Origin: Sulfurospirillum sp. 1612
Lineage (GTDB): Bacteria > Campylobacterota > Campylobacteria > Campylobacterales > Sulfurospirillaceae
Length of the DNA stretch: 64,000 nucleotides
Direction: 5' to 3'
Assembly (NCBI RefSeq): GCF_036556685.1
Contig: NZ_CP140614.1
Location: 124,001-188,000, forward strand
In this document: positions 3,556 to 27,576 of the stretch, piece by piece
How the letters are laid out: every line of letters begins with the position of its first letter
How positions within the stretch are numbered: the first letter of the stretch is position 1
Made by a program: the position numbers and the translations under genes
The notes under the pieces: generated by a model
What the model was told of the DNA's origin: nothing
The model's input: only the letters and a program-made list of their open reading frames with translations
Database searches by the model: none

Positions 3556-3578
3556 TTAGAAAAGTGGAGAGGATTAAC

Positions 3579-5042
3579 ATGAAAAAAATAATTGTATTGT
3601 GTTTGGTTTTGGTTGCCTTTTTAAATGCTCAAGTTAAAAAAACTTATTATCCAACTGGTGAATTGAATACTGAAACCCCATTTAAAAATGGACAAAAAGA
3701 AGGTATTAAAAAAATATATTATGAAACGGGGGAGCTAAAAGCTGAAATTCCATTTAGAAATGGGAAAGAAGAAGGCATTCAAAAAGCCTATTATAAAAGT
3801 GGAAAATTGCTTCTTGAGGGAGCAAATTTAAAAGGAAAAGCTGAAGGTATCATTAGAATTTATTACGAAAATGGTAAATTACAAAGGGCACAATCATTTA
3901 AAAATGGGAAAGAAAATGGCGATTTGAAAGGCTATTACGAAACAGGAGAATTGCAATATATTACTCCATTTAAAAATGGGAAAAAAGAAGGTATTAAAAA
4001 ACAATATTATAAAACTGGTGTGTTAAAAGATGAAACCCCATATAAAAATGGAATAATAGAAGGTATAGAAAAGCAATATTTTCCAACTGGTAAAATAGAA
4101 TATCAAACCCTATATAAAAATGGAAAACCAGAAGGTGTTTCAAAAAAATACTATCCAACCGGTGAGGTAGAAATGGAAACTCCATATAAAAATGGAAAAC
4201 TAGAAGGTCTTGGGAGAATGTATTACCAAACCGGAGAATTAAAAGCGAAAGTTTCATTTAAAAATGGGCAAGAAGAAGGAATTGAAAGAATGTATTACCA
4301 AACCGGAGAATTACAATTGCTAATCCCATTTAAAAATGGAAAAGTGGAAGGTGTTGCAAAGGCATATTATCAAAACGGCAAATTGCGTGCGGAAACTCCA
4401 TATAAAAATGGAATAATAGAAGGTATTAAAAAAATATATTATGAAACGGGTGAGTTAGAGATGGAAGTTTGGTTGAAGCATGGGAAAGCTGTTAAAGGTT
4501 TTTTGTATTCGATACAAGGAAACAAAAGAGAAATGACTCCTGCTGATTTTGAGAATAGAAAAATACCATATGTTAATTTAATGAATGATGGTGTATCTGC
4601 ATATTCTAAAGGAAAGGTGAAAGAAGCTGCTGAACTTTTTAGCAAAGCATGCGATAATGGGAATATGCAAGGTTGTTTAGCTTTAGGGATTTTACTTGAT
4701 ACCGACAAAGGAATAAAACATAATAGGAAAAAAGCAGGCGAACTATATACTAAAGCATGCGATAGTGGAGTTTTGTATGCTTGTGGTTTATTGGGAACTC
4801 TATACGCCGCGGGCGATGGCGTAGAAAAAGATACAAACAAAGCAATAGAACTCTTTACTAAAGCATGTGATGGTGGAAATTCAGCTAGTTGTAATAATTT
4901 AGGAGTTTTATATGCTACCGGCGATGGTGTCAAAAAAGATATAAAAACTGCAATGGAACTTTTTACTAAAGCGTGTGATGATGGCGTGGACTTAGGATGT
5001 AAGAATTACCAGAGTATTAAATCAAAATCTATCACTCAATAA
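3579..5042 (+). CDS. Exported protein with YwqK/MORN-2 and HCP-type Sel1 repeats
   Basis: A 487-residue protein. The ATG at 3579 is preferred over an upstream GTG because it follows GGAGAGGA and starts the signal peptide MKKIIVLCLVLVAFLNA. Twelve tandem 24-residue repeats of the form YYxTGELxxETPFKNGxxEGI fill roughly residues 18-305 (MORN-2/YwqK type). After a linker, four Sel1-like repeats follow, each with a C-x7-C pair (ACDNGNMQGC, ACDSGVLYAC, ACDGGNSASC, ACDDGVDLGC), as in Helicobacter cysteine-rich proteins where the pair forms a disulfide. No catalytic domain is present. A periplasmic or secreted interaction scaffold is likely; the partner is unknown. Some DNA repeat units are nearly identical (around 3698-3730 and 4418-4450), so copy number may change by slippage or recombination. 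Confidence 0.88.
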   Translation: MKKIIVLCLVLVAFLNAQVKKTYYPTGELNTETPFKNGQKEGIKKIYYETGELKAEIPFRNGKEEGIQKAYYKSGKLLLEGANLKGKAEGIIRIYYENGKLQRAQSFKNGKENGDLKGYYETGELQYITPFKNGKKEGIKKQYYKTGVLKDETPYKNGIIEGIEKQYFPTGKIEYQTLYKNGKPEGVSKKYYPTGEVEMETPYKNGKLEGLGRMYYQTGELKAKVSFKNGQEEGIERMYYQTGELQLLIPFKNGKVEGVAKAYYQNGKLRAETPYKNGIIEGIKKIYYETGELEMEVWLKHGKAVKGFLYSIQGNKREMTPADFENRKIPYVNLMNDGVSAYSKGKVKEAAELFSKACDNGNMQGCLALGILLDTDKGIKHNRKKAGELYTKACDSGVLYACGLLGTLYAAGDGVEKDTNKAIELFTKACDGGNSASCNNLGVLYATGDGVKKDIKTAMELFTKACDDGVDLGCKNYQSIKSKSITQ

Positions 5043-16157: not shown

Positions 16158-16166
16158 GGAGATATG

Positions 16167-17675
16167 ATGGAAAAAACTTCAAGATTTTATACATTGATAT
16201 CTCTCGCCGTCATTGGTATCATAGCACTTCCTGTTGGAATTGCCAATATTGTTTTTGGTTATATGTTGGGAGATTCTCCCTGTACCAGTTGCTGGTCACT
16301 AAGAATCACGATGATCGTGATTGCGACATCAGCACTATTTATCATTCGCTATGGTCTTCGTCTCAAATATGTCGGGATGATGCTCATCGCTGCGGCTTAT
16401 GGACTTTGGAATGCGTTTTGGCATCTTGGGATTTATGCGCAGTTAGATATGGGACAAGGTCAAGCGCTGATGGTTTTTAACTTGCACACACAATTGTGGG
16501 CAGGCGTCGTTATGTGGGCTGTGATTTTATTGTTTGCATTGATTTTGCTTTTTACGGGTCCTTCTTTGCAAGAGTTAGCAGCGGAGTTTAAAGGGCAAAA
16601 GTATCGAAAACTCTCCAAACTCGATGGTATTGCTTTTATTGTTTTTATTGTCATTGTTACGTCCAATGCGTTTCAAGCATTTGTTGCGGTGGGACCTCCT
16701 CCTTTTACCGGTCCGGATTCTCCAGCAAGATTTACTTTAAATCCAAAATATATTTCATGGCAAACAGGGTTGACAAACCTCTTCTCTGATCCATCATGGC
16801 GTGGCCCTATGGGTGTGAGTGATCCTGATCTTGCTAGTAGTCAGGCTCCTGGATTTGAATTCAATAATAACCCAGCAGATGCTCCTTTAGTGGTTAATGA
16901 AGCTCTTAATATTGAATCTAAAAAAGTCTTGGATTTACCTTTAAATAGTCCTATCAATGGCTTACGATTTAATCCAAAAAATAATAAATTTGCTTTAGTA
17001 ACAGAGGATTGGGGTCTGTATTTGAGCGGGATTACTTTGGATTCTGTTGAGAAACATTTTGTCCTTGATCATCTCTATTTTCCTGTTGTATTAAATTTCG
17101 TCGGAGTAGATTTTATGGGAGATAATATCAAAGTCATGGGCTATAACAAAGCTTATATCACCGTGAAAGTAGATGATAATGCCGATGAAGTTGCGGGATT
17201 TGCTAATTTTTATGAAGGTGCTGATCAATTTACACCCGTTGAGCGCTCCATGTTTCAAACCGTTAGAGCAAAGACGAGTTATGTGGGTAGCTTTGTGGCA
17301 GATGAAAAATATAGTTATGCCATCTCGGTACCAAATAACCTAAATCCTAGCTTTATTTTAATCAAACAATCCAATGCAGATGGCATGCTATCAGCTGAAT
17401 TAACACCGGAAATTGGCAGTGGTGTCACACTCAAAGAGAAACGAACCTTGGGTGAATTATATACAACCGCCCTAGCGTATAAAGATGGAAAGCTTTATGC
17501 CGCGAGCAAAAACTTTAACATTATCGTCGTAATCGATACGGCGACAGATTCAATCGTAGACACCTACTCTTTCCCTAGTGAAATAAAAAATATACGAGGT
17601 ATGGATTTTGTTGATGACGCACTGTATGTCGTGAGTTATCAAGATAACAAAAACATGCTTTATATTTTGAAATAA
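16167..17675 (+). CDS. dsbI: DsbI-type DsbB-like protein with C-terminal beta-propeller
   Basis: About 502 residues. The ATG at 16167 is better spaced from AAGGAG than the one at 16164. The N-terminal 185 residues form a DsbB-like membrane domain with about five helices. The active-site pair CTSC (counting from 16164, C40 and C43) lies in the first periplasmic loop. The second cysteine pair of E. coli DsbB is absent; I see no other cysteines. Residues about 240-503 are a periplasmic beta-propeller-like region with repeated blade strands (LYAASKNFNIIVVIDTATDS, LYVVSYQDN). This is the layout of Campylobacter/Helicobacter DsbI, which feeds electrons from periplasmic thiols to quinone. Its place ahead of the molybdoenzyme suggests it serves that complex. 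Confidence 0.85.
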   Translation: MEKTSRFYTLISLAVIGIIALPVGIANIVFGYMLGDSPCTSCWSLRITMIVIATSALFIIRYGLRLKYVGMMLIAAAYGLWNAFWHLGIYAQLDMGQGQALMVFNLHTQLWAGVVMWAVILLFALILLFTGPSLQELAAEFKGQKYRKLSKLDGIAFIVFIVIVTSNAFQAFVAVGPPPFTGPDSPARFTLNPKYISWQTGLTNLFSDPSWRGPMGVSDPDLASSQAPGFEFNNNPADAPLVVNEALNIESKKVLDLPLNSPINGLRFNPKNNKFALVTEDWGLYLSGITLDSVEKHFVLDHLYFPVVLNFVGVDFMGDNIKVMGYNKAYITVKVDDNADEVAGFANFYEGADQFTPVERSMFQTVRAKTSYVGSFVADEKYSYAISVPNNLNPSFILIKQSNADGMLSAELTPEIGSGVTLKEKRTLGELYTTALAYKDGKLYAASKNFNIIVVIDTATDSIVDTYSFPSEIKNIRGMDFVDDALYVVSYQDNKNMLYILK

Positions 17676-17749: not shown

Positions 17750-20071
17750 TTGCAAGTTTTAAAAGAAGAGACTAAAGTAAGTCGTAGAAGCTTTCTTAAA
17801 GGCGCAAGCTTAGGTTTGATGAGTGTTCCACTTTTTGGTATGAAACGTACCATCGCCGGAGAAACACCACTTTTTAGCCCAACGCAACCCAAAGGCAATA
17901 CCCAGCTACATCATGTAACCTGTCCAAGGAACTGCCGTGATGCGTGTGCGCTTATCGCTGAAGTACAAGATGGTGTCATGATTGATATCAAAGGAGACCC
18001 AGCCCATCCTGTGACACGAGGAACCGCTTGTGTTAAAGGTCAAGCTTATCGAGAGTATTTATATGCAACCGATAGAATCATGTATCCGATGAAAAGAGCC
18101 GGAAAAAAAGGCGAAGGAAAATGGGAGCGCATCAGTTGGGATGAGGCATTCAAATATACCGCAAAAAGATTAAAAAGTATTAAGAAAAGATACGGTGGAG
18201 AGGCGATTGCTGAGTTTGTATATTCAGGAAACGAAGGTTTCATCAGTAAATCAATCGCTCCGGGAAACTTTTTTGAAAAAATCGGTGCCACAAGGCTGGT
18301 GAGAAACCCTTGTGACTGGCCACGATATGTGGGTGAACCAAGTACAATTGGAACACCATTTTCCAAAGATGCTCTAGAGGCGCAATACTCTGATATGTAC
18401 ATCACATGGGGTTCAAATGAAGCGTATACTGCGGTACACTGGGCAAAATTTGGTCAAGATGTGAGAAAAAGAGGCGGTAAATTAATCACGATTAATACCG
18501 TGAGAACGCCTATGGCAAATCAATCTGATATGTTTATCCAACTCAAACCTTGTAGTGACGCTGCTTTTAGCTTAGGTGTATGTAAAGTTCTGATTGAAGA
18601 AAATTTATATGACAAAAAGTTTGTAGAAAACTATACGATGGGTTTTGGTGAGTTAGTCAAAGAGACCAAAGAATACACCCTCATACAATTGGCTGATATG
18701 TGTGGGATTACCGTGAAAGAAATCGAAGTGTTTGCGCGAGAATATGCAAAAGCAAAAGCACCGTTCATTTGTAGTGGTGATGGCGGACAACGACACTTCT
18801 GTGGTGCGAGGATGATTCGTGCTGCGACTTTCTTGCCAGTACTTGTGGGTGCTGTAACAAAACTCGGTGGCGGTATCTTCTGGGCGTATACCAATCTAAA
18901 ACCATGTTATACGTTTGATAAAGTATCTCCAGATCTCTCACCAAAAGACAAACATGGTAAAAAAATCAAAAGACAAACTGCCAATTATGTCCAATTTGGT
19001 CGTGCCTTGAGATTAGATAATCCAACCAGTTTGGATACTGAGTCTGATTCTTACAAAGAGGTCAAACTCAAAACTCCAATTCGCGCGGTTATTAATTATA
19101 ACACCAACTTGATGGTGACCGCACCAAATACACAACTCATCAAAGATCGTTTGGTAAAAGATGATTTGTTCTTGATTGTTATGGATCCATTTAATACCGA
19201 CACGGTCGATTATGCAGATATCGTTTTACCAGCGGGTACCTTTTTGGAATCAGAAGATATTCAAAATGACCAAGTTTCTGGTTATGTACACTATAACGCC
19301 GCCGCCGCCAAACTGGTTGGTGAGAGTAAAACAAACCTAGAGATTTTCAACGGTCTTGCAAAAGCCATGGGTTATAATGATGAGTGTTTTAATTGGAATG
19401 CCGAACAAATTTTACGAATGATGCTCGATACGGATTTCAATAAATCTCAAAATATTACGTATGAAAAATTAAAAACCATCGGTTGGGTTAAACCAATCAG
19501 AAATGCCAAAACTATGAAAGATCATTTTCCTTATTATCCTTATCATGAAGAAAATAATCTTGTGTTTAAAACCAAATCAGGTAAATGTGAACTCTATTCT
19601 CAACATTTTAAAGATGAAGGTTTTCATCCGGTCATCGACATCGGAACCGATGAAGATTATTACCGATCACAAAAAAGATACGGTGCTGCGTATTTGAAAA
19701 AACATCCACTCTGTTTTATGACTCCAGGAACACAACTCCAAAACAACTCAAACTGGGGTAGCACCAAATATATTGCCAGTCGTGTGGATTATGATGGTTA
19801 TCCTGAACTTTTCATGACCAAAGAAGATGCCGCACCTCGAGGAATCAAAGAGGGCAGTGTGGTGAGTGCTAAAAACGAACTGGGCGAAGCCTTCTTTAGG
19901 GTACGAATTACCACACAAATCAAACCAGGGATTACGTATGCTTGGAACAACATTTGGCATAAAACCACAAAAACAAAAACGGGTGCGAACTATTTGTGCT
20001 GTGATGGGATTGGTGATTTAGGTCAAGGTGCTGTATTTACAGCCACATTTATTGAAGTAAAAAAAGTATAG
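17750..20071 (+). CDS. Tat-exported molybdopterin oxidoreductase (DMSO reductase family)
   Basis: A 773-residue catalytic subunit. A TTG start follows AAGGAGG with 5-base spacing; no ATG fits. The Tat signal is SRRSFLKG (residues 11-18). A [4Fe-4S] site has C58, C62, C66 (CPRNCRDAC) and C94 (GTACVKG). The molybdenum-ligand region reads RNPCDWPRYVG, where C188 aligns with the ligand position and suggests Cys ligation as in many polysulfide/thiosulfate-type and related enzymes. Three Mo-bisMGD domains follow, and a C-terminal barrel from about residue 640. The substrate is unknown. It is followed by its presumed electron-transfer subunit, chaperone and a hydrogenase, so H2-driven reduction in the periplasm is the likely role. 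Confidence 0.88.
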   Translation: MQVLKEETKVSRRSFLKGASLGLMSVPLFGMKRTIAGETPLFSPTQPKGNTQLHHVTCPRNCRDACALIAEVQDGVMIDIKGDPAHPVTRGTACVKGQAYREYLYATDRIMYPMKRAGKKGEGKWERISWDEAFKYTAKRLKSIKKRYGGEAIAEFVYSGNEGFISKSIAPGNFFEKIGATRLVRNPCDWPRYVGEPSTIGTPFSKDALEAQYSDMYITWGSNEAYTAVHWAKFGQDVRKRGGKLITINTVRTPMANQSDMFIQLKPCSDAAFSLGVCKVLIEENLYDKKFVENYTMGFGELVKETKEYTLIQLADMCGITVKEIEVFAREYAKAKAPFICSGDGGQRHFCGARMIRAATFLPVLVGAVTKLGGGIFWAYTNLKPCYTFDKVSPDLSPKDKHGKKIKRQTANYVQFGRALRLDNPTSLDTESDSYKEVKLKTPIRAVINYNTNLMVTAPNTQLIKDRLVKDDLFLIVMDPFNTDTVDYADIVLPAGTFLESEDIQNDQVSGYVHYNAAAAKLVGESKTNLEIFNGLAKAMGYNDECFNWNAEQILRMMLDTDFNKSQNITYEKLKTIGWVKPIRNAKTMKDHFPYYPYHEENNLVFKTKSGKCELYSQHFKDEGFHPVIDIGTDEDYYRSQKRYGAAYLKKHPLCFMTPGTQLQNNSNWGSTKYIASRVDYDGYPELFMTKEDAAPRGIKEGSVVSAKNELGEAFFRVRITTQIKPGITYAWNNIWHKTTKTKTGANYLCCDGIGDLGQGAVFTATFIEVKKV

Positions 20072-20084
20072 AAAGGAGTGGATG

Positions 20085-20648
20085 ATGTCAAAAAGTCAAA
20101 AAGGATTTCTATTTGATCAGAATTTTTGTATCGGTTGTAAAGCCTGTGAAATTGCTTGTCAAGTATATCATAGACAAGAAGAACTTATCAATTGGAGACA
20201 TGTTGATACTTTCTTCTATAACGATGGAAATATGGAAAAAGAAGTATATATCTCCAATGCGTGCCATCACTGTGAAGAGCCCGCTTGTGTAGAGGTTTGT
20301 CCTACTTCTGCTTATACGAAAAGAGATGATGGAATTGTCGTGCTTGATCGTGATAAGTGTATTAGCTGTGGTTATTGTGAAGAGGCCTGTTCTTATGGTG
20401 CCATCACACTAAAAGGCCAAGATCACAAAGCACAAAAATGTAATATGTGTGCAGAAAAACAAGATGTTGGCGAGCTTCCTGCTTGTGTTGCAGCGTGTCC
20501 TGTTGATTGTTTAAAATTGGTAGATACGAGAGTTTCAGATGCGGCGGGAATGTCAAAAACAGCCGTAGGATTTGTTCCATCTAAGATGAAACCATCTATC
20601 AGATTTTATCCAAAATTTAGAAGTGGCGATTACATAAAAATTAATTAG
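20085..20648 (+). CDS. Four-cluster ferredoxin-type electron transfer subunit
   Basis: A 187-residue DmsB/PhsB-like protein. The ATG at 20085 has better spacing from AAAGGAG than that at 20082. Four cysteine sets are visible: CIGCKACEIAC, CHHCEEPACVEVC, CISCGYCEEAC and CNMC...CVAAC, enough for four [4Fe-4S] clusters. It has no own signal, so it is presumably exported with the Tat-bearing molybdoenzyme. It likely carries electrons between the molybdoenzyme and the hydrogenase small subunit. No NrfD/DmsC-type membrane partner is encoded nearby. Confidence 0.9.
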   Translation: MSKSQKGFLFDQNFCIGCKACEIACQVYHRQEELINWRHVDTFFYNDGNMEKEVYISNACHHCEEPACVEVCPTSAYTKRDDGIVVLDRDKCISCGYCEEACSYGAITLKGQDHKAQKCNMCAEKQDVGELPACVAACPVDCLKLVDTRVSDAAGMSKTAVGFVPSKMKPSIRFYPKFRSGDYIKIN

Positions 20649-20670
20649 CATAGAGAAATAGGGAATCAAA

Positions 20671-21318
20671 ATGGAAAATTTAGAATTAGAATATCATCAA
20701 AATATAGCAAATGCATATGATTTGTTGCGCGTTGTATTTTTCAATCAGTGGAGAGAAGAGACCGTACTTGATCTTAAACAAAAAGCAGATGCATTGAAGG
20801 ATGAATCTAAAAAATTAGCATTTGTCCAAGATATTGAACTTATAAAAGGCGATGCTCTTGATACGGCAAGGTGGGAATATAATCGATTATTCATAGGCCC
20901 TCAAAAACCATTGGCGACTCCTTTTGAATCGGTTTATAGATCAAAGAAGAAACTCATGATGCGAGAGAGTACCTTTGAGGTAAGAGAATTTTATGCCAAT
21001 GTGGGATTGGAAGTCGAGAGAAAAGACCATTTTCCTGATGATTTCATCGGCTTTGAATTTCAGTATCTTTTTTATGTATCCCAATTAACCGTCGCGTTGA
21101 TTGAGCACAAAAAAGAAGACGAAGCCATCGCACTCATACATGAGCGAAAAGATTTTTTAGCGCAACATCCAAATCAGTGGTTTCCTGCATTTTGCGATGA
21201 TATTTCAAACCACAGCAAAGAAAAAATATGGAAAGATCTTGCTGAATTTATTCTAAATATTTCGAAACAAGAGGAAACGTTTTTTGAACTTTTCTCAATA
21301 AAAAATAAGGAAAAATGA
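20671..21318 (+). CDS. TorD/DmsD-like molybdoenzyme chaperone
   Basis: A 215-residue all-helical cytoplasmic protein. The family hallmarks are a WEYNRLFIGP segment, the TPFESVYRS motif and the later FPDDFIGFEFQYL helix, matching the TorD pattern. Such proteins bind the Tat signal of the molybdoenzyme and hold it until the cofactor is inserted. It lies between the two oxidoreductase modules and overlaps the hydrogenase large-subunit gene by four bases. It might also proofread the hydrogenase Tat signal, but that is speculation. Confidence 0.85.
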   Translation: MENLELEYHQNIANAYDLLRVVFFNQWREETVLDLKQKADALKDESKKLAFVQDIELIKGDALDTARWEYNRLFIGPQKPLATPFESVYRSKKKLMMRESTFEVREFYANVGLEVERKDHFPDDFIGFEFQYLFYVSQLTVALIEHKKEDEAIALIHERKDFLAQHPNQWFPAFCDDISNHSKEKIWKDLAEFILNISKQEETFFELFSIKNKEK

Positions 21319-22868
21319 TGTCAAAAAAAGTGACAATTGACCCATTAACAAGGATAGAAGGGCATTTAAAGTTTGAAACAACTCTGAATAACAGCGGAGT
21401 GGTTACGGATGCAAAATGTACTGCAGATATGTACAGAGGTATTGAAAAAGCACTGATTGGCTATGATGCAAAAGTAGCACAACAAGTGACACAAAGAGTA
21501 TGTGGTGTTTGTCCTTATGCTCATGCGGAAGCTTCTGCATTGGCTTTAGAAAATGCCATGGGATTGAAGTTAAATAAAAACGGCTATCTATTGAGAAATT
21601 TGATTGTCGGTGCGTATCGTTTACAAGATTATTTGTTGCACTTTTATACCTTAAGTGCGTTGGATTTTATCGACATTACCGCAATCACAAAATATCAAGG
21701 CAAGGATAGTGGATTGTTGGCGTTGAAAGATTGGGTAAACAAAGAGCTCAAAAGTGGAAAGATTTTCCCAGCAGCACCTTTTTTACCACGATATGAAGCT
21801 GCATATACCACCAACCAAAATCTAAATATCTCAGCGGTAAAACACTATTTAGAATCGATTCAAGCGATGGCTGAGATTCATAAAATGGTAGCAATTTTTG
21901 GTGGCAAATCTCCCCATCCTGTTGCGATTGAAGCAGGGGGTGTGACGACACGACCAACTGTCGATGCCTTGATGAAATATGAAACACTCTTGAAGCGTAC
22001 GAAAGCATTCATCAAAGATGCTTATGTCCCCGATGTCAAAGCGGTAGCCAAAGCGTATAAAGAGTACTTTAAGATAGGAAAAGGAACGGGGGATTTGTTG
22101 AACTTCGACTTTATGCCAGATGAAAATGGAGAAAATTTCCTCTTCATCGGGGGGTCTACTATCAATGGTAAGTTTGAAGCATTAAAAGATACAAAAATTT
22201 TAGAATCTCAAAAATATTCTTATTATAAAGATGGCAAAAAAGATTATGCTCCAATGGAACAAGACTCAGAACACCCTCTTAGCTGGTATGAATATGAGCG
22301 AGAACAAAAGAAATCAAATGGTAAATACAGCTGGAGTAAAGCACCAAGATATCGTGATAAAGTAGTCGAAGTTGGGGCTGTCGCTCAGGTAGTAAATACC
22401 TACAAGAGTGGCCATAATCCAGAGCTTAATCGATTGGTCGATAGTATCAATACCGAACTTGGAATCAAACTAAGCGATTATAACTCTGTGATGGGTCGCC
22501 ATCTTTGCCGTGCTATTGTTTCCTTGATTGTGGTGGATAGATTGGAAAAAGATTTGAACAAAGTAGTCCCAGGAGAGCTTGGATTTATCGAAAAAGAAGT
22601 GCCTAAAAATGCTTCAGGATTTGGTTTTACAGAAGCCAGTCGTGGTGCTTTGGCGCATTGGATTGAGACAGACGACGAGGGACTTATTAAAAATTATGAA
22701 ATGATAGTACCAACGACTTGGAATATCTCTCCTAAAGACAGTAAGGACAGAGCCGGTGCAGTAGAGCAAATGCTAATTGGAACAAAAGTAGCAGATGCCA
22801 ACAACCCAATTGAGCTAGCAAGAATCGTCAGATCTGCTGATCCTTGTATAGCTTGTTCAGTACATTAA
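21315..22868 (+). CDS. [NiFe] hydrogenase large subunit, no C-terminal extension
   Basis: A 517-residue catalytic subunit for H2 activation. The N-terminal DPLTRIEGHLKFE signature is followed by the L1 metal motif RVCGVCPYAH (C63 and C66 from the first ATG). The C-terminal metal motif is DPCIACSVH (C511, C514), and the stop codon follows the histidine directly. Most [NiFe] large subunits carry a short extra tail cleaved by an endopeptidase after metal insertion; here no tail exists. Tail-less forms are known for sensory and CO-linked hydrogenases. All four metal cysteines are present, so catalysis is plausible. The gene overlaps the chaperone gene by ATGA. A second ATG lies three bases in. 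Confidence 0.92.
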   Translation: MMSKKVTIDPLTRIEGHLKFETTLNNSGVVTDAKCTADMYRGIEKALIGYDAKVAQQVTQRVCGVCPYAHAEASALALENAMGLKLNKNGYLLRNLIVGAYRLQDYLLHFYTLSALDFIDITAITKYQGKDSGLLALKDWVNKELKSGKIFPAAPFLPRYEAAYTTNQNLNISAVKHYLESIQAMAEIHKMVAIFGGKSPHPVAIEAGGVTTRPTVDALMKYETLLKRTKAFIKDAYVPDVKAVAKAYKEYFKIGKGTGDLLNFDFMPDENGENFLFIGGSTINGKFEALKDTKILESQKYSYYKDGKKDYAPMEQDSEHPLSWYEYEREQKKSNGKYSWSKAPRYRDKVVEVGAVAQVVNTYKSGHNPELNRLVDSINTELGIKLSDYNSVMGRHLCRAIVSLIVVDRLEKDLNKVVPGELGFIEKEVPKNASGFGFTEASRGALAHWIETDDEGLIKNYEMIVPTTWNISPKDSKDRAGAVEQMLIGTKVADANNPIELARIVRSADPCIACSVH

Positions 22869-22875
22869 GGATAAA

Positions 22876-23802
22876 ATGATGACAAGAAGAGAAGTACTCA
22901 AACAAATGTATGCAGTCGTAGTTGCTGTCGGAGCATCAAGTTTTCTAAGCTTTGACGATCTACTTGCAATGGATAAAGGTGAGATAGCTAAACCCAACCT
23001 CGTATGGTTGCATGGTACCTCCTGTTCTGGATGTTCTACATCCTTTCTCAATGTCGAGGGCGTGCCACTTGTCGATATTCTAACAGAATACACTAATGTC
23101 GTTTTTCATCCAGATATCTCATTGGCCACAGGACATCAAGTGACTGATATGTTGGAACGTGCGGATGAATACAAAGATTTTATTTTTGTATTTGAAGGTT
23201 CCATCCCGATGGCGATGCCCCATGCTTGTATGCTAGGTGACAAACCGATGACCTATTGGGTGGATAAATTGGTTCGCAAATCAAGTGTTTGTATTGCGGC
23301 TGGTACGTGTGCGAGTTTTGGTGGTATCACCAATATGGAAGGCATGGTAACCGGTCCAAAACCATTGGCAGATTTTATCAGTTATCAAGGGATTAAAAAA
23401 CCGGTTGTGAACCTACCAAACTGTCCTATGAAACCAGAGCAATTATTGTATGTGTTGTTCTATTATCTTAAGACTCACAATACACCAGAACTTGATGATG
23501 AGAAACGTCCGCTTAGATTTTTCGGCAATACCGTGCATGAGAGATGTACGCGTCATGATGATTTCACCAGAAAGAAATTTGCTAAGAAAATCGGTGATGA
23601 GGGCTGTCTATTTTATCTTGGCTGCCAAGGAATTGTCACCAAAAATGATTGTCCGATCAATGGACACAATGGCAACACCAATATTTGTATCAAAGCAGGG
23701 CATCCGTGTATCGGTTGTGCTGGCAAATATTTCCCTCGAAAGATTATGTTGCACACTTATGATGATAAGCGCCCTAATGAGAGATTTAAAGTTATCTCCT
23801 AA
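22876..23802 (+). CDS. [NiFe] hydrogenase small subunit, Tat-type
   Basis: A 308-residue Fe-S subunit. The N-terminal TRREVLKQM is a twin-arginine-like motif followed by a hydrophobic stretch, so the folded dimer is probably exported. The proximal cluster ligands include CSGC in HGTSCSGCSTSFLN, with further cysteines in AGTCASFGG and LPNCPMKPEQ. The distal part has histidine and cysteine ligands in VHERCTRH, FYLGCQG and HPCIGCAG. There is no C-terminal membrane anchor, unlike uptake hydrogenases that reduce quinone through a cytochrome b. Cofactor maturation genes (hyp) are not in the window. The likely electron acceptor is the ferredoxin-like subunit encoded upstream. Confidence 0.92.
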   Translation: MMTRREVLKQMYAVVVAVGASSFLSFDDLLAMDKGEIAKPNLVWLHGTSCSGCSTSFLNVEGVPLVDILTEYTNVVFHPDISLATGHQVTDMLERADEYKDFIFVFEGSIPMAMPHACMLGDKPMTYWVDKLVRKSSVCIAAGTCASFGGITNMEGMVTGPKPLADFISYQGIKKPVVNLPNCPMKPEQLLYVLFYYLKTHNTPELDDEKRPLRFFGNTVHERCTRHDDFTRKKFAKKIGDEGCLFYLGCQGIVTKNDCPINGHNGNTNICIKAGHPCIGCAGKYFPRKIMLHTYDDKRPNERFKVIS

Positions 23803-24468: not shown

Positions 24469-25752
24469 TTATGATAAGGGCGGTGTCAACTCTTTGATGA
24501 AGCCAATCATCCTGATGGGGTTGTTGTATCTGTCATATTTGAAGATTCTACTACGCGATTCGACATATTTTAATGCCCCTGATTGTGAGATGATTCGAAA
24601 TTGGATACGACAAAATTCATCGGTACTGTTAAAACACTCTTCAATATGCTGAATCACAGCGGGCAAATCTTTTTGATGGATAAATTCCTTTTGAAATTGA
24701 TCTATGGGCATTGAGATTTCATTGTTTGAGCACTCAATCAATGCGGCAAATACTGAATTTCCCGTGATTGTTTTTTGCGGAATATCCCAATCCCAAGCGC
24801 CTATTTTTGCAGATTGCAAACTACAATTGAGCCACTCTCGGTTGCGTTTGAGAGAATTTTCTGTCGCTTTTCTTTTTTTTATTTCTTTTTTTAAACGATA
24901 CGTCCAATAGAGAAAAATCCCAATCAAAATAGCACCAAAGGCCGATATTTGCCAGACGAGAGTATAATCAACCGCTTTTTGAAACAATGGTGGGAACCAC
25001 TGACAATAGATATTGTCTTTGACTTCTTGGGGGATTGCATGAATACATTTTTGCAATATATCCCTCAAAATAGGCGCATCATCTCGCACTCCCATAGCAT
25101 AATCAAATCGATACTTGGCGATGCCCGATATCGCCAGATTTTGAAAACCATCATTTTGGATAGAGTAGGCGATTTGAGATAAATTTCCAACATAAGCATA
25201 CGTCTTGCCCGCAAGCACTAAATTAAGCCCCTGCGTCAAATTTTCGGTTTTGACTAAAAAGATATCTTTATGAAACTCTTCTAGGATGTGATGGCTCATA
25301 TAATCATCAATAACTGCTACGGTTTTGCCGTTTAACTCTCTTAATCCATCAACATACCCCACAATCTTATTGGTCACAATAGCCATAGGAAAAGAGAGGT
25401 AGGAATGTGTAAAGAGGAGGTATTCTCCCCTTTTATGAGTGGGTGCGATACAAGAGAGTACATCAACCGATTTATCTCTTGCTAATTCTGTGACTTCCTT
25501 CCATGTTTTGGCGGTGACAATGTTGATTTTGATGTTGAGCATCTTTTTGATTTCAGCGAGATAATCAATGGCAATACCTTTAAATTCCCCATGACTATCT
25601 TGAAATTCAAATGGCGCATAATTTCTATCGATGCCTACGGTGATGCTAGGGTGCTGTGCTAGCCAATCTTTCTCTTTTTGCGTTAATCCAATATCGACTG
25701 CAGCCCATACGTTTATTTGTAGAAACAGACCGATACAGAGTAATTTAATCAC
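24469..25752 (-). CDS. Membrane sensor: solute-binding domain plus PAS, no output domain
   Basis: About 427 residues. The preferred start is the GTG at 25752, which overlaps the kinase stop as GTGA and follows AAGGAA; a longer ATG start lies inside the kinase gene. After a signal segment (LLCIGLFLQINVWA), a family-3 solute-binding domain spans roughly 30-265 (ITVGIDRNYAPFEF). A single membrane helix near 270-290 follows, then a PAS domain (WDWDIPQKTITGNS to IRMIGFIKEL). The protein stops there: no kinase, GGDEF, EAL or methyl-accepting region. BvgS-like sensors normally continue into a kinase. It probably acts by pairing with the kinase encoded directly upstream in the operon. Confidence 0.8.
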   Translation of the reverse strand: MIKLLCIGLFLQINVWAAVDIGLTQKEKDWLAQHPSITVGIDRNYAPFEFQDSHGEFKGIAIDYLAEIKKMLNIKINIVTAKTWKEVTELARDKSVDVLSCIAPTHKRGEYLLFTHSYLSFPMAIVTNKIVGYVDGLRELNGKTVAVIDDYMSHHILEEFHKDIFLVKTENLTQGLNLVLAGKTYAYVGNLSQIAYSIQNDGFQNLAISGIAKYRFDYAMGVRDDAPILRDILQKCIHAIPQEVKDNIYCQWFPPLFQKAVDYTLVWQISAFGAILIGIFLYWTYRLKKEIKKRKATENSLKRNREWLNCSLQSAKIGAWDWDIPQKTITGNSVFAALIECSNNEISMPIDQFQKEFIHQKDLPAVIQHIEECFNSTDEFCRIQFRIISQSGALKYVESRSRIFKYDRYNNPIRMIGFIKELTPPLS

Positions 25753-26939
25753 TGTGAATTTCCTTCTTTTAATATTTTTGATGGGAGGTAATAGCAAAAG
25801 CGCGTATGCCCCTCTTGTGTTGATGTAACCTCAATGTTAATTTTATAGATATGACAGATATGCTCCACCATACTCAACCCTAAGCCAAACCCGCCTAAAA
25901 TATTATCCCCTCGATAATACCTTCGAAAAATCTTTTTGGTGTCTTGAATCTGTTCTCCCCAATTACTAAAACACAACCTACCCATCGATGCGTCTTTAAA
26001 GAGTGTGATTTTAATTGTCGTTCCTTTGTTGGAATATTTGATAGCGTTGGAGAGATTGTTATCAATTAACCGTTGCAACTCGACCACATTGATGTGTAAA
26101 AACAGATTGTCTGTGATGTCACTCATGATTTTTAGATCTTTAATCTCTGCCAAAATACGAAAAAATTCTATTCTGTTTTTTAGCAAAGGAGCGACATGAA
26201 CCCAATCTTTTGGATACGAGGTTTTTGAATTTTTTATGAAGTATTCGATACTTTCATAAACAGACGTGAGATTACGCAATCCTCCCTGTGCTCTTTTTAG
26301 TGCCATAGAGGATTTAATTGTATTTTCTAAAAACTCCAAATTGATTTGAATCACTCCCAAAGGGGTACGTATCTCATGCATGGCATCTTTGAGGAAAAGG
26401 TCTAGATTTTGATTGATGATATTGTGTACTTTAGTGGTGTGTAAATACAAAAAGATACTGCACAAAATCAAAAATGTGATAATACTAATGACTAAAATAA
26501 AAATCCTATTATTGATATCTGAATAATTCAAATCTTTTTCCAAGATAATGCGTACCGGCCCTGAGGGAAGAAATGTTTTGGTATGGTTATAAAAAAGATG
26601 ATTGCCCCGCATATAAATCAGCTTATGGGGATTATATGTGGGAGTGTTGGTAAAGGTTGTATAGAGTATGGAGCCATTGGTATCGATGAGGGCAACGCGA
26701 TATAAGAAGGATTCTAATGTCCCAAAGATAGACTCTTTGAACTCTTTTAGTGTGCGATTATATTTGGTGATTTTATTGGCATAATGCTCGATTTTGTACT
26801 GCTCTTGTATTTTGAGCATGGCTGTGGATTCTTGGATATAAAAATATGAAATGAGAGCAAATGCTGAGGTAATGATGATGGCAGAAGCAAATGAGTAAAG
26901 GGCTATAGAGATGTTAAGTTTTTTCAATTTGGTATCCAA
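25749..26939 (-). CDS. Sensor histidine kinase
   Basis: A 396-residue membrane kinase. Two membrane helices (about 10-32 and 145-165) frame a periplasmic domain of about 110 residues. The dimerisation box has the phosphorylated histidine in DAMHEIRTPLGVIQ. The ATP-binding domain shows the N box NNLSNAIKYS and G box GGFGLGLSMVEHI. It overlaps the response regulator by 26 bases and the sensor protein by four, so all three are one operon. The signal is unknown; the adjacent solute-binding-PAS protein may be the ligand sensor. Confidence 0.92.
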   Translation of the reverse strand: MDTKLKKLNISIALYSFASAIIITSAFALISYFYIQESTAMLKIQEQYKIEHYANKITKYNRTLKEFKESIFGTLESFLYRVALIDTNGSILYTTFTNTPTYNPHKLIYMRGNHLFYNHTKTFLPSGPVRIILEKDLNYSDINNRIFILVISIITFLILCSIFLYLHTTKVHNIINQNLDLFLKDAMHEIRTPLGVIQINLEFLENTIKSSMALKRAQGGLRNLTSVYESIEYFIKNSKTSYPKDWVHVAPLLKNRIEFFRILAEIKDLKIMSDITDNLFLHINVVELQRLIDNNLSNAIKYSNKGTTIKITLFKDASMGRLCFSNWGEQIQDTKKIFRRYYRGDNILGGFGLGLSMVEHICHIYKINIEVTSTQEGHTRFCYYLPSKILKEGNSQ

Positions 26940-27576
26940 GCCCTCGGGAATTGATGATGAGATTTTTGTCTGTTTTGTCGCGAATGCGTTTGATGTGCAT
27001 TCTCAAATCCGCTTCAGTGATAAATTCATCATCCCAAAGGGTGCTAATGATATCATTGGTGGTGAAAAAAGAGCCTTGTCTCATGATGAGATAATTGAGG
27101 ATTTTTTGCTCAATTGGTGTCAGTTTAATCATCTCCCCATCTCGGGAAAGTTCGTGTTTGAGTAGATCAAATATAAAGTTATATTTTAGTTTTATGATAC
27201 TTTTACTGGTTTTGTATTGAAAATTATTGACCGTTTGTGTGATGCGGTATTTGAGCTCTTTTAAGGCAAAAGGTTTCCGGATATAATCATTGCAACCGAC
27301 TTCATAACCGGTGCTTAAATCATCAATATCGGTGAGCGAGGTCACGAGGATGATAGGCACTTCTATGTCATTTTCTCGCACAGCCTTCACCACTTCATAA
27401 CCTGAAATCGTCGGGACTCTCACATCCATCAATAACAAATCATAATCAGTTTCAAATACTGCATCTAGCGCGTCTTGACCCCTCTCAAAATCATCCACGT
27501 CATAATCTAAAGATTCAAGATACTCTTTAATGCTCACTCGGTAACTAAAATCATCCTCTAACAGTAAAATTTTCAT
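26914..27576 (-). CDS. OmpR-family response regulator
   Basis: A 220-residue two-component regulator. The receiver domain (1-120) has the acidic pocket LLLEDD, the phospho-acceptor aspartate in LLLMDVRVP and the lysine in YIRKPF. The winged-helix DNA-binding domain (about 130-218) has the LTPIEQKILNYL and DLRMHIKRIRDK helices. It is the first gene of the three-gene sensory operon. Targets are unknown. Confidence 0.92.
   Translation of the reverse strand: MKILLLEDDFSYRVSIKEYLESLDYDVDDFERGQDALDAVFETDYDLLLMDVRVPTISGYEVVKAVRENDIEVPIILVTSLTDIDDLSTGYEVGCNDYIRKPFALKELKYRITQTVNNFQYKTSKSIIKLKYNFIFDLLKHELSRDGEMIKLTPIEQKILNYLIMRQGSFFTTNDIISTLWDDEFITEADLRMHIKRIRDKTDKNLIINSRGLGYQIEKT

Follow-up and report, generated by a model that had tools for sequence, protein, structure and literature searches.

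The window analyzed here is a stretch of 64,000 nucleotides from Sulfurospirillum sp. 1612, a member of the Sulfurospirillum family with a complete genome of 2.38 Mb (G000). On its forward strand, six genes oriented in the same direction encode, according to open reading frames and Pfam/NCBIfam assignments, a DsbI-like membrane protein, a molybdoenzyme with its iron-sulfur subunit and chaperone (moA, fdB, and torD), and a [NiFe] hydrogenase (hydL and hydS, together hydLS). A preliminary description had placed the five genes from moA to hydS at positions 17750 to 23802 and had read them as a possible H2-driven periplasmic molybdoenzyme complex without a membrane subunit. These genes are real and correctly located, Pfam and NCBIfam models confirmed their families, and the interpretation built upon them was partly supported.

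Organization of the operon

The operon begins with the DsbI-like gene (16164 to 17675), which lies 74 nt upstream of moA and codes for a four-helix DsbB-type protein with a C-terminal propeller-like domain (PF02600; NF050065, below the cut-off of the latter model). It is followed by moA (17750 to 20071), which starts with TTG and encodes a Mo/W-bis(pyranopterin guanine dinucleotide) (bisPGD) catalytic subunit of 773 amino acids, exported by the twin-arginine translocation (Tat) system and containing the Pfam Molybdopterin, Fe4S4, and dinucleotide-binding domains. The product of fdB (20082 to 20648) is a four-cluster subunit of the DmsB/PsrB/ArrB type with 188 amino acids, as judged from family assignment, Cys motifs, and matches to solved structures, and that of torD (20671 to 21318) is a TorD/DmsD/NarJ-family chaperone for the molybdoenzyme (PF02613, E = 2e-28). 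The large hydrogenase subunit is encoded by hydL (21315 to 22868; PF00374, E = 9e-141) and the Tat-exported small subunit by hydS (22876 to 23802; PF01058 and PF14720). The four-base overlap between torD and hydL (21315 to 21318), noted previously as a sign of tight packing, is present in the window but is not conserved, since a 28-nt gap separates both genes at the sister locus L037. Tat motifs were found in the products of moA (SRRSFLK) and hydS (TRREVLK), whereas FdB and HydL have neither a signal peptide nor a Tat motif of their own, as is usual for subunits that are exported together with a signal-bearing partner.

The notion that a membrane subunit is missing held for NrfD, DmsC, and cytochrome b, none of which is encoded in the operon. 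Throughout G000, the best match to NrfD was a 49-residue fragment (E = 3.7e-4) and the best match to cytochrome b had an E value of only 2e-4; neither NrfD nor the cytochrome b subunit found in relatives has an orthologue in this genome. However, the DsbI-like membrane protein, which belongs to the operon, had been missed. Of the 21 genomes with moA, 20 have its gene upstream of moA (G229 is the one in which it was not seen), and the window copy has a single CxxC motif (C40/C43). In Campylobacteraceae, the protein is mostly split into a DsbB part of ~230 to 260 amino acids and a separate propeller gene of ~297 amino acids.

This membrane protein could be thought to replace NrfD or cytochrome b and to link MoA-FdB to the quinone pool via its CxxC motif, with HydLS as a second input. 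It is membrane bound and encoded by the first gene of the operon, and its CxxC motif is followed by an Arg, as at the quinone site of DsbB; but the same gene is found in nearly all relatives that also possess NrfD or a b-type cytochrome, and DsbI proteins sharing this CxxC motif also exist on their own, away from moA. Because it is found together with either subunit, the DsbI-like protein is not a stand-in for them. Its role as an anchor replacement was thus rejected as the principal explanation, and we regard it as highly improbable.

Electron input in relatives of moA

To place the operon in context, we used a sample limited to the phylum Campylobacterota, comprising 397 genomes for moA and 397 and 399 genomes for hydL. 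An moA gene was present in 21 of the 397 genomes, and its neighborhood showed three states of electron input. At 11 Campylobacteraceae loci, namely, those read with enough flanking sequence, torD is followed by a gene for an NrfD-like protein of 273 to 297 amino acids, which was confirmed with PF03916 in all three of the loci tested. In G011 and G338, a PF01292 cytochrome b is encoded between fdB and torD; the moA of these genomes is 76 to 77% identical to that of the window and is adjoined by the same two-component system. The third state, in which there is neither NrfD nor cytochrome b and hydLS follows torD, was observed only in the window genome and in Sulfurospirillum sp. BB15 (G038, locus L037), the only two genomes that carry hydLS inside the moA operon. 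Between both, moA, fdB, hydL, and hydS are 85 to 87% identical. A cytochrome b paralogue in G038 belongs to a different molybdoenzyme operon (L112). BB15 was also the sole match in a scan of genome contigs with HydL as a single protein, a scan that reaches close relatives only, and in the plasmid collection only distant paralogues of MoA (best 31.6%) and HydL (all under 60%) were found. As side observations, moA is in two pieces in G275 (L074, Campylobacteraceae), and the moA matches of G247 and G139 (L042 and L046) contain an in-frame TAA, which may be an artefact of the start region.

The preliminary description had regarded the occurrence of orthologues independently of the molybdoenzyme as an argument against its proposal, and such orthologues exist: moA occurs without hydLS in 19 genomes and hydLS without moA in 8, whereas the complete five-gene set recurs in BB15. 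Yet the pattern of distribution supports an exchange of partners. Operons have either the membrane subunit or the hydrogenase, a pattern to be anticipated if electrons enter through the latter; the hydLS and moA modules have thus each swapped their usual membrane partner for the other. The idea of an H2-driven input gains its main support from this comparison of genomes, and a direct coupling between both enzymes is what we infer from it. The operon thus probably encodes a soluble periplasmic H2:acceptor oxidoreductase in which HydLS would replace the NrfD or cytochrome b input.

The six-gene order recurs in BB15, counted here as a second genus, and the ratio of nonsynonymous to synonymous substitution rates (dN/dS) between both genomes was 0.037 to 0.083 for all six genes, at dS values of about 1 to 3. 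For these two reasons, the gene set does not reflect chance; all six genes are under purifying selection, and the arrangement is old and maintained. The identity between both operons (68 to 87%) was about equal to or somewhat above that of other orthologues, namely, the main hydrogenase (75%) and its neighbors (42 to 80%), so that the operon may have been inherited vertically or transferred long ago.

Several points weigh against a soluble H2:acceptor oxidoreductase. The combination, although found in two genomes, counts as one evolutionary event. In the moA tree the hydrogenase pair groups with G338 with a support of 86/84, whereas the support for the same question was 52/48 in the concatenated tree, so that a cytochrome b state is no more than a possible direct forerunner of the hydrogenase state. 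Furthermore, the DsbI-like membrane protein sits in the operon; either half could work with a soluble cytochrome or ferredoxin; and the direction of electron flow is not fixed by sequence. Lastly, an AlphaFold model of MoA based on 14 sequences had a predicted local distance difference test (pLDDT) score of 44.6 and was discarded.

The hydrogenase and its chemoreceptor-linked relatives

HydL contains all four Cys ligands of the Ni-Fe site and, in an alignment of eight orthologues, ends with DPCIACSVH. It is part of a clade that is set apart from the other group 1 enzymes with a support of 100/100 and that is present in ten genomes. All 10 members terminate at the CxxCxxH motif, so there is no C-terminal extension to cleave, and the clade lacks in this respect a hallmark of group 1 large subunits. 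Such an extension is normally cleaved after nickel insertion, and its absence is otherwise familiar from regulatory hydrogenases. The extension-free large subunits are those of the window (21315 to 22868) and of loci L037, L088 to L093, L118, and L119. HydS has the ligands of the proximal and distal clusters, and its C271 corresponds in the alignment to the Pro that flanks the medial [3Fe-4S] cluster of the Desulfovibrio vulgaris Miyazaki enzyme; three [4Fe-4S] clusters are therefore expected. No C-terminal membrane helix or anchor was seen in the HydS sequence. Taken together, the L1/L2 Cys motifs, the Tat signal of HydS, the three Fe-S clusters, and the lack of an anchor correspond to a soluble periplasmic group 1 [NiFe] hydrogenase. 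By contrast, the main membrane hydrogenase of the same genome has a C-terminal extension and an anchored small subunit, and it comes with a dedicated cytochrome b and protease.

HydLS shares with the soluble periplasmic group 1a [NiFe] and [NiFeSe] enzymes of Desulfovibrio, which reduce cytochrome c3, the Tat-exported pair of subunits without an anchor, and the medial cluster of the NiFeSe enzymes is bound by four Cys, as predicted for HydS. It differs from them in that HydL has neither selenocysteine nor a C-terminal extension, and in that its Campylobacterota relatives adjoin a diheme methyl-accepting chemotaxis protein (MCP). An MCP gene follows hydLS directly in 8 of the 10 genomes (L088:5921-10234, L089:443-4754, L090:9481-13724, L091:2419-6682, L092:9494-13719, L093:8688-12908, L118:1501-5805, and L119:3282-7522), and none of these 8 genomes yielded an moA orthologue. 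The MCP has two CxxCH heme motifs in its periplasmic sensor part. Elsewhere, the hydLS clade appears to feed a diheme chemoreceptor, and the hydLS-MCP unit is a candidate receptor for H2 taxis whose hemes would receive the electrons of H2. No published description of this link turned up in the literature searched. Judging from family content, the L092 pair is probably GAmH_0978/0979 of N. profundicola. The latter proteins have been described as soluble and periplasmic, without an anchor (PMC2628731).

These relatives bear on the alternative that HydLS and MoA-FdB share their regulation but work as separate enzymes, with a soluble carrier feeding MoA-FdB and HydLS either reducing a periplasmic cytochrome or serving as an H2 sensor. 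That ArrAB-type enzymes run without a dedicated membrane subunit, that the relatives of hydLS adjoin a chemoreceptor and lack the C-terminal extension, and that orthologues of each half are found alone would all be compatible with two independent enzymes. However, the loss of the membrane subunit and the gain of the hydrogenase coincide in the same two genomes. In addition, no diheme MCP is encoded beside hydLS in the window, and no match in G000 or G038 covered the heme-bearing sensor region of the MCP, all matches beginning no earlier than residue 190. The two-component system beside the operon occurs equally in genomes without hydLS and is therefore not a dedicated H2-sensing partner. We consider two separate enzymes unlikely, although they are the most credible of the alternatives to the H2:acceptor oxidoreductase.

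Active site, proposed electron flow, and neighboring genes

Reductases of the complex iron-sulfur molybdoenzyme (CISM) family are textbook quinol-driven respiratory enzymes. The operon contains the characteristic CISM components, namely, a catalytic subunit with N-terminal [4Fe-4S] and Mo-bisPGD domains, a four-cluster DmsB-type subunit, and a NarJ/TorD chaperone, whereas the quinol subunit (NrfD, DmsC, or cytochrome b) is present in relatives only. FdB has 16 Cys in four [4Fe-4S] motifs, and its best matches among solved structures were PsrB (2vpw_B) and ArrB (6cz7_B). With PsrABC, PhsABC, and DmsABC the operon shares the catalytic subunit, the four-cluster subunit, and the TorD-family chaperone, and its orthologues do carry NrfD; it differs in having hydLS instead of a membrane subunit and a Cys where DmsA is Ser ligated. 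ArrAB likewise consists of two periplasmic subunits and has no membrane subunit, and its Fe-S subunit is similar and its Mo Cys ligated, but it has no hydrogenase subunits, and the match between MoA and ArrA was weak (47 bits as compared with a cut-off of 1600).

Cys188 of MoA is invariant in an alignment of 14 orthologues, and it aligns with the column of the Mo ligand in FdhF, PsrA, and the FdhF of hydrogen-dependent CO2 reductase (HDCR); a separate alignment set this column beside Escherichia coli DmsA (EcDmsA). Cys188 is the predicted Mo ligand. MoA is consequently not DmsA-like at the active site. In accordance, the DmsA model TIGR02166 scored 288 bits with a cut-off of 777.7, and DMSO reductase was rejected on the basis of Cys188 in place of Ser. 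A formate dehydrogenase was rejected as well, since MoA has Asp189 at the place of FdhF His141 and a gap, with no Arg, at FdhF Arg333. Substrate specificity cannot be read from these residues and family scores. The N- and S-oxides proposed earlier are less likely acceptors because the predicted Mo ligand is a Cys; a sulfur, arsenic, or selenium oxyanion or polysulfide would fit better. In Campylobacter concisus, dmsA is likely the orthologue of moA. The operon order there is similar (dmsAB-torC-dmsC), a dmsA mutant had no growth phenotype with N-/S-oxides, and the role of the Campylobacter "dmsABC" system is described as undetermined (PMC10653797). The resemblance of MoA to this system makes its acceptor of wider interest.

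By motif inspection, the clusters of HydS, FdB, and MoA form a continuous electron chain. H2 would be oxidized at the Ni-Fe site of HydL, and the electrons would travel along the three [4Fe-4S] clusters of HydS and the four clusters of FdB, and from there via the [4Fe-4S] cluster and Mo of MoA to a periplasmic acceptor. HydLS would substitute for the subunit, NrfD or cytochrome b, through which menaquinol supplies the orthologous enzyme of relatives. As H2 oxidation and acceptor reduction would both be periplasmic, no proton motive force is expected from this step, and it would serve as an electron sink, as a means of detoxification or scavenging, or to activate an acceptor. The analysis establishes which genes are present, their order and conservation, their cofactor motifs, and the exchange of modules; the physical complex, the electron direction, and the lack of energy conservation are suggested by gene anatomy and partner exchange. 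The full scenario, in which the quinol subunit disappeared from a CISM operon that then took up a soluble [NiFe] hydrogenase of a chemoreceptor-linked clade, giving rise to a quinone-bypassing H2:acceptor oxidoreductase without direct energy conservation, is put forward tentatively, at slightly less than an even chance.

The nearest analogues differ in location or cofactor. HDCR (7qv7) unites a soluble hydrogenase, ferredoxin-like subunits, and a molybdoenzyme without a membrane subunit, as the gene content suggests here; it is cytoplasmic and consists of an [FeFe] hydrogenase and a formate dehydrogenase, whereas the present hydrogenase is of the [NiFe] type and Tat exported. The hydrogenase-sulfur reductase systems of Aquifex and Acidianus are membrane bound and quinone linked, whereas here both partners are predicted to be soluble and are encoded in one operon. 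In those organisms, a [NiFe] hydrogenase and a Mo sulfur reductase act as one H2:S system (cited in PMC10100899).

Electrons might alternatively flow in reverse, with MoA oxidizing a periplasmic substrate and HydLS releasing H2, as in formate hydrogenlyase or HDCR. Among solved structures, FdhF and its counterpart in HDCR are some of the nearest to MoA, and a HydS with [4Fe-4S] clusters only recalls the reversible NiFeSe enzymes. The missing formate dehydrogenase residues argue against this direction, as does the resemblance of the NrfD-bearing relatives to quinol-dependent reductases, although NrfD serves dehydrogenases too; we judge reversed flow to be improbable. If the H2:acceptor oxidoreductase is correct, the molybdoenzyme may run directly on H2 instead of on the respiratory chain. 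One conserved molybdoenzyme with its electron input in three states (NrfD, cytochrome b, and hydrogenase) offers a natural experiment on the modular build of redox enzymes, and the relatives of its hydrogenase point to a candidate H2-taxis receptor.

Beside the operon, on the reverse strand, are genes for a membrane sensor with SBP_bac_3 and PAS domains (24469 to 25797; also at L037, L062, and L063), a histidine kinase (25749 to 26939; conserved at the same three loci), and an OmpR-type response regulator (26914 to 27576; 66 to 78% identity among the four loci). This two-component system with its separate sensor (24469 to 27576) is found next to moA operons both with and without hydLS; H2 sensing was rejected on these grounds, and the signal of the system may be the substrate on which the molybdoenzyme acts. 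Upstream of the BB15 operon, a regular repeat array (L037:101-4313) that looks like a CRISPR (clustered regularly interspaced short palindromic repeats) adjoins a cas1-like gene (101 to 1081). Elsewhere in the window, positions 3564 to 5042 encode a MORN_2 and Sel1 repeat protein, coded by about 11 copies of a 72-base unit.

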